DNA of 64,000 nucleotides from Bacteroidota bacterium (GTDB lineage: Bacteria > Bacteroidota > Ignavibacteria > Ignavibacteriales > Ignavibacteriaceae), in contig JAJYDC010000002.1 of assembly GCA_021777835.1 (NCBI GenBank), forward strand, positions 1 through 64,000, given 5' to 3'. Position numbers and translations under genes: made by a program. Under the pieces are notes generated by a model, which had not been told where the DNA came from, ran no database searches, and was given only the letters and a program-made list of their open reading frames with translations. Positions within the stretch are counted from its first letter, which is position 1; each line of letters begins with the position of its first letter. Positions 1-10,202 of this stretch are shown piece after piece.

Positions 1-144
1 AAAACTATTGAAATATTACGAAGTTAGTATAATAAAAGGTAATAATTTTTAGATGATATCCTGAAAAAAAGAGTTCATCTCTTACTAATTCTGAAAAAGT
101 TTATGATTTATTAATTTACTCAAGCTGACCGCATAAATATAATA

Positions 145-674
145 AACGGTTGAAACCGTTACGATGGGTGTGGGTTTGCCGTCAAGCTCACCTAACTGAA
201 GTTAGGTGTTAGAGGTAAGCGCAGAATAAGTGTGATAGTGTAATAGGATTACGGTTAATATCGCAATTCGTTGGGGTGAAAGAAGGATGCGAGGGAACCG
301 CCTAGTCAAGTTCACCTAACTGAAGTTAGGTGTTAGAGGTAAGCGCAGAATAAGTGTGATAGTATAATAGGATTACGGTTAATATTGCAATTCGTTGGGG
401 TGAAGAAGGATGGGGGGAATCCGCCAGGTCGTGTTCACCTAACTGAAGTTAGGTGTTAATGGTAAGCACAGAATAAGTGTAATGATAGTATATGGGCTGA
501 GGTATATTAAAGATTAAGGTAAACGGTTGAAACCGTTACGATGGGAGTGGGGTTGCCGTCATAATCACCTAACTGAAGTTAGGTGTTAAAGGTAAGCGCA
601 GAATAAGGTAAACGGTTGAAACCGTTACAATGGGAGTGGGGTTGCCGTCATGATCACCTAACTGAAGTTAGGTG
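145..674. repeat. REP-like hairpin repeat cluster, left of the RAYT gene
   Basis: Two hairpin types recur here. Type 1 has an 8-bp stem, CACCTAAC/GTTAGGTG, around a TGAA loop; copies start at 189, 313, 436, 566 and 655. Type 2 has a 6-bp stem, AACGGT/ACCGTT, also around TGAA; copies start at 145, 522 and 611. Every type 2 hairpin is followed 28 bases later by a type 1 hairpin. Type 1 copies are mostly 123-130 bp apart, with one shortened 89-bp unit. The unit before 522 also carries a copy of the 3' end of the nearby transposase gene (see 821-1267). Bases 1-144 show no gene. Confidence 0.9.
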
Positions 675-771
675 TTAGAGGTAAACACAGAATAAGTGTA
701 GTGATAGTATAATCGGATTACTGTTAACATTGCATCGTTGGAGTGAAGAAAAGACCCTGGCAAGAATAAGG

Positions 772-787
772 AACCGTTATAACGGTT
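772..787. repeat. Perfect 16-bp palindrome just upstream of the RAYT gene
   Basis: AACCGTTATAACGGTT equals its own reverse complement. It uses the same arms as the AACGGT/ACCGTT repeats but in swapped order, with TATA in the centre. It lies 33 bases before the transposase start codon, so it could be a left-end recognition structure or an operator for the transposase. The function is inference. Confidence 0.6.
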
Positions 788-820
788 TACCAACAGCTAA
801 AAATTATAAAGGAGGAAAAA

Positions 821-1267
821 ATGTCGCTTCATTCATATTCCAAATGCTGGATTCACATGATATGGGGAACTCTAGATCGTGAAAAAATTATAAGTGATAA
901 AGAGACACAAAGAAAACTGGCAAATTATTTCTATGACTATTCGAGGAAGAAAAATATTTTTATGATGTGTAACTTTGTAAATAGTGATCATGTACATGCT
1001 CTCATAGATATCCCAACGTCTTATTCTATTGAAGAAGTTTTTAAGCTTTTTAAAGGCAGTTCATCGCATTGGATAACGGAGAACAATTTAATTGATAGAA
1101 AGTTTTCTTGGGGAAGAGGGTACGGTGCTTTTTCCGTATCGGAATCCAATGTAGAAAAGGTAATAAAATATATAGAAGGACAGGAAGAGCACCATAGAAA
1201 AAAATCTTTTATAGAAGAGTATGAGGGATTCATAAAAGTATATGGGCTGCAGTATATTAAAGATTAA
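821..1267 (+). CDS. REP-associated tyrosine transposase (RAYT, IS200-like Y1 family)
   Basis: This 148-residue protein has the size and motifs of the single-strand DNA transposases of the Y1/HUH superfamily. The metal-binding pair is HVH at residues 57-59. The probable catalytic tyrosine is Y117 in VIKYIEGQEEHH. The C-terminus, EEYEGFIKVYGL, is typical of this family. A strong ribosome site, AAAGGAGG at 808-815, sits five bases before the ATG. The gene stands alone, without a TnpB partner, and is flanked on both sides by hairpin repeats, which is the RAYT arrangement rather than that of an ordinary IS200/IS605 element. A type 2 hairpin (1272-1287) begins four bases after the stop codon. RAYTs are thought to spread REP sequences; activity here is inferred from intact motifs. 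Confidence 0.88.
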   Translation: MSLHSYSKCWIHMIWGTLDREKIISDKETQRKLANYFYDYSRKKNIFMMCNFVNSDHVHALIDIPTSYSIEEVFKLFKGSSSHWITENNLIDRKFSWGRGYGAFSVSESNVEKVIKYIEGQEEHHRKKSFIEEYEGFIKVYGLQYIKD

Positions 1268-1842
1268 GGTAAACGGTTGAAACCGTTACGATGGTGTCGG
1301 GTTGCTGTCATATTCACCTAACTGAAGTTAGGTGTTAGAGGTAAGCGCAGTATAAGTGTAGTGGTAGTATAATGGGCTGCGGTATATTAAAGATTAAGGT
1401 AAACGGTTGAAACCGTTACAATGGGAGTGGGGTTGCCGTCATGATCACCTAACTGAAGTTAAGTGTTAGAGGTAAGCGCAGAATAAGTGTGATAGTATAA
1501 TAGGATTACGGTTAACATCGTAATCCGTTGGGATGAAGAAGGATGGGGGGAAACCGCCAGGTCGTGTTCACCTAACTGAAGTTAGGTGTTAGAGTTAAAC
1601 GCAGAGTAAGTGCAGTGATAGTATATGGGCTGCGGTATATTAAAGATTAGGGTAAACGGTTGAAACCGTTACGATGGGAGTGGGGTTGCCGTCATGATCA
1701 CCTAACTGAAGTTAGGTGTTAGAGGTAAACACAGAGTAAGTGTGATAGTATAATAGGATTACGGTTAATATCGCAATTCGTTGGGGTGAGAGAAGGATGC
1801 GGGGGAACCGCCTAGTCAAGTTCACCTAACTGAAGTTAGGTG
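1237..1842. repeat. REP-like hairpin repeat cluster, right of the RAYT gene
   Basis: The same two hairpin types continue after the transposase. CACCTAAC-stem copies start at 1315, 1446 (one stem mismatch), 1569, 1699 and 1823. AACGGT-stem copies start at 1272, 1402 and 1655. The sequence TATATTAAAGATTA, which encodes the last residues of the transposase, also precedes the hairpins at 1402 and 1655 outside any gene. Spacing of type 1 hairpins is 131, 123, 130 and 124 bp, alternating between a unit with the transposase tail and a unit without it. Nothing else is seen before the next gene ends at 1961. Confidence 0.9.
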
Positions 1843-1960: not shown

Positions 1961-3496
1961 TCATTTCTTAGTAATCGTATAAATTTCGCCGTCTTTTAGC
2001 TGAGCTATTAATATCATATTACAGCTTTTCTTTAAGTCATTAATGTTATATAAAAAAGGACGGTTGATATTAGTGAACCAAACTAGGTAAGCTTTGTTTT
2101 TGCCCTGCCATATATTTTTTAAATCCGGATTTGATTTTATAAGTTCCGGAGAATTATACATTGTTTTTGGGGGACTCCACTTTGTTTCTTTGTCTGCTAA
2201 AATGTATACAGCTTCCGGAACATTGCTGTAAAATGAGTATCCTGATCTAAATTGTTTGTGGTCATTAAGATATTTAATTACTGTATTATCTCTCCAAGAT
2301 TTGCTACTGTATTCCCATCCGGCTTGTCCAATATAATTTTTAATATTATAGATTGTGGTTGTAACAGGGTATTTCATCCAGGCTATTATCGCAATCAAGA
2401 ATAAAATTGGTAGAAGCTTGTAATGGTAATGCTTTGATATCCATTCTAAAATATTATCAAGCATTAAGAAAATTATAAAAACAGAGGGTATAAAAATAGG
2501 TGATAGGAGTCTGTTGGCAATTTTGTCATAAGCTGTAGTTGTTGATGAGATGACTATAATCCCTGAATATAATAACAAAAAGATTAATGCAGGGCCTATT
2601 TGTTTTAATCTTATCTCGTCTTTTTCCCATTTATTCCGATAAGCAATTAAGGTTAAAATTCCGGCGAAAATAATTAACATTATATAAAAGAATTGCTGGT
2701 CGTTCATTTGTATTGGTAAATACAATTTTAGCATCACATTGAATAAGTACAGTAGATTCTCGGATAAAGTATAGGATGAATCAGCGCGCTGCCCAACTAA
2801 TGTGCCTGACAAAATATAGTTTCTTAAAATCCATAAACCGGTTGGTATAATTGTAATAAGCAAAAAGATAATAAGATGCCGAAACATCACTCTCAAGGTT
2901 TTTCTATTCCAAATATATATGCTAATTGAACCTGATAAAATGATTATAACACCAACATATCTGGTTAGACAAGCTAATGCTGCGGCTGTTGAAAAAAGAA
3001 GCAGGGAAGTAATTGTACCTTTTGACCTATACTTATCAAAGTAATTCAGATATAAGAGAACAAACAAAATGAAAAGAGGTTCCGATAATGCAATTAGAGA
3101 AATTTGAATAAGTATAAAGGAAACCATAATCACTATGGTCCCAATTATTATTAAAGCCAATGACTTCAAATGATTTAATAAAAATGTACCGGAATAATAA
3201 ACGATTAAGCCAAAAAGAATTGCATTTAAATAGCCGGCAGATACTAGGGGGTCAATTGAAAATATTTTTAATATTGCAGCCAATAGTAACGGATATAAAG
3301 GTGATTGAAGGACAAAATAGTAGCCATCATAACCAACGAAACCTTTCCCATCAGATATATGTCTTGCTACTGAAATATAATATACAGAGTCAGGAGAGAC
3401 TCCTACACGGCAGCAGTTTATAAGCAGAATTATAAAACATGCCCCACTTAATCCTATAATTGCGGGAAGTATTCTATGTTTAAATTGTATATCCAA
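1961..3496 (-). CDS. GT39/ArnT-like integral membrane glycosyltransferase
   Basis: A 511-residue polytopic membrane protein with roughly ten to twelve hydrophobic segments. The first periplasmic loop carries an acidic residue (D36, in SPDSVYY) followed by a region matching FVLQSPLYPLL. This resembles the catalytic loop of the dolichyl-phosphate-mannose-dependent and ArnT-like (GT39/PMT_2, GT-C fold) transferases. These enzymes move a lipid-linked sugar onto a protein or lipid A at the outer face of the inner membrane. The soluble C-terminal part (about 390-511) is not recognised. Neighbours give no substrate hint. The family assignment is moderately sure; donor and acceptor are unknown. Confidence 0.65.
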   Translation of the reverse strand: MDIQFKHRILPAIIGLSGACFIILLINCCRVGVSPDSVYYISVARHISDGKGFVGYDGYYFVLQSPLYPLLLAAILKIFSIDPLVSAGYLNAILFGLIVYYSGTFLLNHLKSLALIIIGTIVIMVSFILIQISLIALSEPLFILFVLLYLNYFDKYRSKGTITSLLLFSTAAALACLTRYVGVIIILSGSISIYIWNRKTLRVMFRHLIIFLLITIIPTGLWILRNYILSGTLVGQRADSSYTLSENLLYLFNVMLKLYLPIQMNDQQFFYIMLIIFAGILTLIAYRNKWEKDEIRLKQIGPALIFLLLYSGIIVISSTTTAYDKIANRLLSPIFIPSVFIIFLMLDNILEWISKHYHYKLLPILFLIAIIAWMKYPVTTTIYNIKNYIGQAGWEYSSKSWRDNTVIKYLNDHKQFRSGYSFYSNVPEAVYILADKETKWSPPKTMYNSPELIKSNPDLKNIWQGKNKAYLVWFTNINRPFLYNINDLKKSCNMILIAQLKDGEIYTITKK

Positions 3497-9897: not shown

Positions 9898-10202
9898 AAC
9901 ATCTAATGAATTAGATGTTGTGGGGTAAAGCCCGGATGGTAATTTGTGTCATGAGCTCCAGACTGAAGTTTGGGTTACGGGGGAAGGGATGATAAGTCAA
10001 GATAGGGAGTGTGCTCAATGGATGTTTTTTTAGGATCAGGGCTAAAGCCCTTGTTGAGGTGGGTTTGATGTACCCCAGGCTGAAGCCTGGGGTTATTGAG
10101 GAAGGAATGAAAGGACAAGTAGATGTGTGCCAGGTATTTTATGGAGTTAGGGGCTAAAGCCCCTCATGTATTGGATGTTAGTTTCTCCACGTTAAAACGG
10201 GG
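9898..10202. repeat. Cluster of unrelated-stem hairpins sharing TGAA or TAAA loops
   Basis: Distinct perfect or near-perfect hairpins: AACATCTAA stem with TGAA loop (9898-9919), CCAGAC with TGAA (9958-9973, one G-T pair), AGGGC with TAAA (10038-10051), CCCCAGGC with TGAA (10073-10092), AGGGGC with TAAA (10149-10164) and a mismatched CCACGT with TAAA (10187-10202). Stems differ while loops stay TGAA or TAAA. A TAAA or TAAA-like hairpin is often followed about 20-30 bases later by a TGAA hairpin. The region holds no gene. Confidence 0.8.

Follow-up and report, generated by a model that had tools for sequence, protein, structure and literature searches.

Introduction

The hairpin systems closest to the one described here are the REPtrons of E. 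coli, Stenotrophomonas and Marinomonas, in which a class 2 transposase (RAYT or TnpA_REP, with the motif Y---NP) is encoded by a single-copy Y1 gene lying between hairpins of inverted orientation, each with the tetranucleotide guide GT[AG]G on its 5' side, and in which short paired units (REP, BIME or REPIN) are dispersed between genes or repeated in tandem. The TnpA_REP of the Marinomonas system REPtron Mb needs the loop TTNA, and some REPtrons keep their REPs concentrated near tnpA (PMC8266576). A second family, the IS200/IS605 elements of subclass 1.1 (IS608, ISDra2), relies on an HUH Y1 catalytic core with the motif Y---Q and on hairpins with a 5' guide, the hairpins being on the same strand and the element ends defined beside a target tetranucleotide. 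The closest relative of these classical IS200 transposases to have had no known DNA partner is subclass 1.2, described from Cyanobacteria and Bacteroidetes by the motifs DH[IV]H and Y---Q--HH, a length of 148 and a low copy number (Quentin et al. 2018, PMC6006769). That study recorded no REPs for the subclass, found typical IS200 terminal secondary structure to be generally absent and reported no IS properties; our literature search, whose coverage was incomplete, returned no paper tying subclass 1.2 to hairpins.

Here we analyse a window of 64,000 nucleotides (the whole stretch of DNA studied), in which a tnpA gene lies among hairpins at positions 145-1842. We consider it probable that the locus represents a REPtron-like system whose enzyme is a Y1 transposase of subclass 1.2 (IS200 clade), with the window holding a tandem array of its units. 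Its likeness to the RAYT REPtrons lies in a single-copy Y1 gene, tandem units, the TTNA loop of REPtron Mb and, as in some systems of PMC8266576, REPs concentrated near tnpA, and, as seen in relatives, in inverted hairpins with a 5' tetranucleotide on either side of the gene and short paired units dispersed between genes. It differs from them in its protein, which is of class 1 (Y---Q--HH, not Y---NP), in its guide, NTWR, which reads TTAA in this clade and ATTG in a different one and is rarely GTAG, and in its REPs, which consist of two hairpins each, ~45 nt apart.

The transposase

The tnpA gene (821-1267, plus strand) is an intact open reading frame of 148 amino acids with the motif DHVH and the tyrosine Tyr117. 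The protein matches Pfam Y1_Tnp with 83.5 bits and the NCBIfam IS200/IS605 transposase model with 64 bits (cut-off 55), while the NCBIfam model of REP-associated transposases, NF047646, gives 28.2 bits, below its cut-off of 80. Its predicted fold (pLDDT 88) matches the transposases of ISDra2 and IS608, with a weaker match to the TnpA_REP of E. coli (4er8). In motifs, length and copy number it agrees with subclass 1.2 as published: YIEGQEEHH as the Y---Q--HH motif, DHVH, the length of 148 residues and a low copy number, with one gene in the genome. On motifs and profile scores, TnpA is best classified as a TnpA_Y1 of subclass 1.2 (IS200 clade) and not as a classical RAYT.

The sequence-only reading had described the locus as a REPtron-like unit around a RAYT gene. 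The family name is unsupported, because the motif is Y---Q--HH and the NF047646 score lies below the cut-off (28 against 80 bits); the REPtron part is supported by the architecture, that is, by inverted hairpins, a guide and, in relatives, dispersed pairs that lack tnpA. The origin that it named, Ignavibacteria/Bacteroidota, is consistent with a relative identified as Melioribacteraceae SCALA702 (G092), which belongs to the same order as the window.

Anatomy of the hairpin array

Ten outer hairpins, CACCTAAC-TGAA-GTTAGGTG (the CACC hairpin), nine of them exact and one with a single mismatch, start at 189, 313, 436, 566, 655, 1315, 1446, 1569, 1699 and 1823, and six inner hairpins, AACGGT-TGAA-ACCGTT, at 145, 522, 611, 1272, 1402 and 1655. 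Dinucleotide shuffles give an expectation of zero for the outer type and yield none of the inner type. This inventory around an intact Y1 transposase confirms the earlier one, whose finer description needs some correction. The outer hairpins are 124, 123, 130, 89, 660, 131, 123, 130 and 124 nt apart from start to start, so the spacing of 123-131 bp holds for most intervals and fails for the 89-nt one and for the 660-nt one that contains tnpA. The supposedly constant gap of 28 bp within each pair is found in five of the six pairs, the remaining one measuring 27 nt. The two hairpins alternate incompletely, with only 6/10 units having the AACGGT hairpin, and a seventh hairpin of this type, in reversed orientation directly upstream of tnpA (772-787), had been missed.

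Paired hairpins form double-hairpin REPs on the minus strand. The first spans 143-214 (inner 145-160, outer 189-208), followed by 520-591 (inner 522-537, outer 566-585) and 609-680 (inner 611-626, outer 655-674); downstream of tnpA lie 1400-1471 (inner 1402-1417, outer 1446-1465, the latter with one stem mismatch) and 1653-1724 (inner 1655-1670, outer 1699-1718). All five were recognised by both the REP covariance model and hairpin scans. Between them stand outer hairpins of A-type units, also on the minus strand, at 313-332 (from the hairpin scan, without an AACGGT hairpin), 436-455 and 1569-1588 (hairpin scan), and the array closes with an outer hairpin at 1823-1842 (minus strand, hairpin scan).

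The tnpA-containing unit, counted on the plus strand from one outer hairpin to the next, covers 660 nt (655-1314). On its right side the REP is intact (1270-1340, minus strand, 62.5 bits) and consists of the inner hairpin at 1272-1287, a 27-nt spacer, the outer hairpin at 1315-1334 and then the guide TTA (complement). On its left side the covariance model finds a REP of opposite orientation at 722-789 (plus strand, 23.7 bits, E 0.002 in the window), a layout identical to that of relatives: a guide TTAA at 724-727, a degenerate outer hairpin at 728-745 and the reversed inner hairpin AACCGT-TATA-ACGGTT at 772-787.

Origin of the array units

Comparison of the units showed that the short ones share end sequences with the long one. 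B-type units (436-565 on the plus strand, and further at 1315-1445 and 1569-1698) join the first 57-62 nt of the 660-nt tnpA unit to its last ~75 nt, which contain the 3' tail of tnpA itself, with a short AGTATA repeat at the junction; the 89-nt unit joins positions 1-42 of the tnpA unit to positions 607-657. A-type units have their first 93-96 nt in common with the tnpA unit and differ in their terminal 28-nt stretch. To this extent at least, the short units derive from the tnpA unit by internal deletion.

The hairpins have resisted change in these units. Across 14 outer and 8 inner copies, only 1/408 hairpin cells departs from the majority, compared with 63/516 (~12%) in the spacers next to them (Fisher p = 6e-16), and since the genome search tolerated two mismatches, it does not itself impose invariance within that tolerance. 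Invariant hairpins among drifting spacers show that the array is no fresh duplication and that the hairpin sequence has been maintained or homogenised.

The A-type units also appear to keep a trace of an opposite hairpin, with TTAA followed by a decayed stem: for the unit of 313-332 we read a guide at 255-258 and a degenerate opposite hairpin at about 259-278, and for that of 436-455 a comparable remnant at about 383-402. A similar array in a relative (L061) is made of 138-nt units, each of which has recognisable hairpins of both orientations. Given the degenerate left REP, the A-unit remnants and the L061 array, the window can be read as a REPtron with decayed left-hand hairpins.

Distribution in the same genome

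A genome search that allowed as many as two mismatches places the CACC hairpin at 14 sites. Ten are those of the window, which starts contig C67; C69 has three at its start, and C57 has one at its end. The AACGGT hairpin, searched with the same tolerance, goes with it genome-wide. The C69 array has no tnpA. Both arrays with an assembled left end (C67 and C69) open with an AACGGT hairpin, and all three close with a CACC hairpin. The first 127 nt of C67 and C69 are identical (window 1-127; L013 1-127) and diverge thereafter, which probably marks a branch point of the assembly graph at k = 127. Positions 477-569 of C69 resemble window 1998-2091, the end of the neighbouring membrane-protein gene, a likeness that indicates partial duplication of the array flanks. 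Apart from the three arrays, a single palindromic copy was seen on C86 (L234, G000:C86:116051-116157), with the stem CACCGGGA instead of CACCTAAC.

This confinement is an observation against the REPtron reading, as is the degeneration of the outer hairpin to the left of tnpA: the exact hairpins are not dispersed in their own genome. The sequence-only reading had named absence of the hairpins from the rest of the genome as evidence against itself; for the exact hairpins, found in three arrays only, this very nearly holds, but in relatives REPs are dispersed.

In sister species the array is absent beside the neighbouring gene, which fits a gain in the lineage of the window. The left flanks are not comparable, and the locus is no proper empty site because the window starts inside the left flank; no intact empty site showing a REP insertion event was found.

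Hairpins around homologous genes

To place the locus in context we examined 110 loci with a homologous tnpA from the same order, other Bacteroidota, Verrucomicrobia and further groups, which broadens the published distribution of subclass 1.2. The motif Y---Q--HH is present in every one of the 107 usable homologues. The 110 loci contain 232 perfect hairpins (stem of at least 7, loop of 4) at distances of up to 400 nt from tnpA, compared with 8.8 in shuffled flanks, and in 211 of them the loop is TGAA, TAAA, TTCA, TTTA or TTAA, that is, of TTNA type. The loops are polarised: TTYA occurs mostly upstream (about -140 to 0) and TRAA downstream (about 20 to 80), which means that one hairpin is inverted around the gene. 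Compensatory-change counts are strong but circular, as the sequences were preselected for perfect pairing, and the argument is based on the shuffled controls, the loop polarity and the guides.

A separate clade of 13 loci, with an NTYTQ, NTYSQ or HTYTQ N-terminus (L097, L100, L104, L109, L115, L116, L119, L123, L128-L130, L132 and L137), retains Y---Q--HH and has no outer hairpin at all, serving as an internal control. Outside this clade, hairpins flank 66/94 loci by the strict rule, about 30% having none within the limits used, whereas subclass 1.2 as published is without REPs.

Upstream of the stem, in the orientation of the outward-pointing hairpin, these 66 loci share a guide, NTWR, although the hairpins were chosen without using it. 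Position -3 is T in 63/66 loci (1.69 bits), position -2 mostly A or T, and position -1 A or G. Where guides could be read on both sides of tnpA (29 loci), they are identical in 18 and match in at least three of four positions in 25 (permutation p = 5e-5), and the stems of the two sides also agree (permutation p = 5e-5). Clades have their own guides (TTAA, ATTG or ATAG), and the classical GTAG of the RAYT REPtrons stands on both sides in L134. Stems vary between clades yet match across each gene, in a layout common to several phyla. As a candidate recognition code we considered an N-terminal switch between His and Arg-Ser together with a switch between CACC and CCMA stems; the two are associated in every locus readable for both, yet all Arg-Ser proteins belong to the same clade. 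The link therefore counts as a single event, and the code was rejected.

These data bear directly on the best of the alternatives, an ordinary IS200/IS605 element whose left and right ends would be the CACC and AACGGT hairpins, with the array formed by nested insertions and internal-deletion MITEs. The NCBIfam match above cut-off and the nearness of the fold to ISDra2 and IS608 agree with it, as do the uniform direction of all the clear hairpins in the window and the derivation of the short units from the tnpA unit; catalytic core and hairpin-guide logic are shared as well. We nevertheless find it unlikely, because the tnpA-flanking hairpins of relatives are inverted, not on the same strand, because the genome has a single tnpA copy, and because arrays that start with AACGGT (C67, C69) and end with CACC (all three) show the opposite of what complete elements placed end to end would give. 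In addition, no tnpB was seen adjoining tnpA, there are no multi-copy identical elements, no defined ends beside a target tetranucleotide were found, and the published account of subclass 1.2 gives it a low copy number and no IS properties (PMC6006769).

Dispersal of double-hairpin REPs

In the clade of the window the inner hairpin, AACSGN-TTYA-NCSGTT, lies ~45 nt inward of the outer one (loop to loop), and the distance is 41-49 nt in nearly all pairs found. A covariance model of the outer-inner pair (R1) matches 106/146 related genomes, and the matches, counted up to a ceiling of 34 per genome, have a median of 22.5 in genomes with a close tnpA and of 3 in those without (p = 3e-8), with kinship and the ceiling as confounders. 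Inverted pairs without tnpA are dispersed, mostly between genes, in two of these genomes: G117 has outer-inner...inner-outer units at several separate places, and G097, a single contig, has eight REP loci besides the tnpA locus, 7/8 of them outside open reading frames.

A different arrangement is common in G053 and other relatives, namely palindromic units in which two inner hairpins enclose a TTAA-flanked palindrome. In G053 (L259-L275) these are MITE-like dispersed elements of ~200 nt bounded by terminal inverted repeats of ~20 nt such as TCTGGTCTAAAAAGGT. An attempt to derive exact element ends from the dispersed copies of G053, G126, G019 and G113 gave no clean REPIN ends, since most of these copies have the palindromic arrangement.

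The recurrence of the layout makes it very unlikely that the transposase merely sits among repeats of the host, with a regulatory or terminator-like role, or in a passive tandem array. The tandem spacing of 123-131 nt would suit such repeats, and for REPs of other types insertion targeting is known (ISPpu9, PMC8450116); against this, the layout returns around homologous genes in several phyla with clade-specific stems that match on both sides, terminator-like sites show no excess in the region (2 against 1.1 expected), and an Rfam search of the array region gave zero matches. Least probable of all is that another enzyme mobilises the hairpins, either the class 2 transposase of C57 or a DDE enzyme acting on terminal inverted repeats, with tnpA a bystander or decayed: there is a second Y1 gene with Y---NP on C57 and the G053 copies do have such repeats, but the hairpin flanking the C57 gene is another one (CAGACTGATAGTCTG), the window units contain pieces of the window tnpA, and REP counts track close tnpA homologues. 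That C57 gene (L027 1252-1833), the only other Y1 gene of the genome, encodes a RAYT-type protein of 193 amino acids with NHIH and YVLINP.

Proposed mechanism and implications

The REPtron-like reading takes its support from what is observed, namely the anatomy of the locus, the conservation of hairpins and guides, the inverted arrangement, the dispersal seen in relatives and the derivation of units; binding, cleavage and mobilisation of the hairpins by TnpA we infer. Mechanistically, by analogy with TnpA_REP (PMC8266576), TnpA would bind the hairpins that one strand forms when single-stranded, reading their TTNA loop, stem and 5' guide (TAA or TTAA at this locus), select the cut by means of the guide and cleave beside the hairpin with Tyr117. 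Under the guide rule put forward for TnpA_REP, a TTAA guide would direct the cut to TT or TA and an ATTG guide to CA. Such cutting would allow the enzyme to copy, move or spread short hairpin units. Each REP comprises an outer 8-bp hairpin with its guide and an inner 6-bp hairpin ~45 nt inward, the two hairpins perhaps serving one subunit each of a TnpA dimer, and tnpA lies between two oppositely facing REPs of this kind. In the window, the tnpA unit and its shorter deletion derivatives have accumulated head to tail and form an array at one site, akin to tandem BIMEs.

More broadly, we raise tentatively, at a little under even chances, the hypothesis that subclass 1.2, an entire branch of IS200-clade transposases (in Ignavibacteria, Bacteroidota, Verrucomicrobia and others), runs a REP/REPIN system of its own, with a double-hairpin REP and clade-specific guides. 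If so, REPtrons would have arisen outside class 2 or would predate the split between IS200 and RAYT, which bears on how mobile IS200 enzymes became single-copy, host-resident REP enzymes. With a conserved hairpin partner that bears a guide tetranucleotide, subclass 1.2 now has a candidate substrate and a testable activity, and the guides TTAA, ATTG, ATAG and GTAG, with the stems CACC and CCMA, form a natural series for studying how hairpins are read.

The genome of the window also contains a second hairpin family, CCCCAGGC-TGAA-GCCTGGGG-TTAATG with GGGCTAAAGCCC neighbours, which occurs at window 9899-10165 and scattered over several contigs (L244, L248 and L254; C92, C52), and which likewise has a TTAA-like guide and a TGAA loop.
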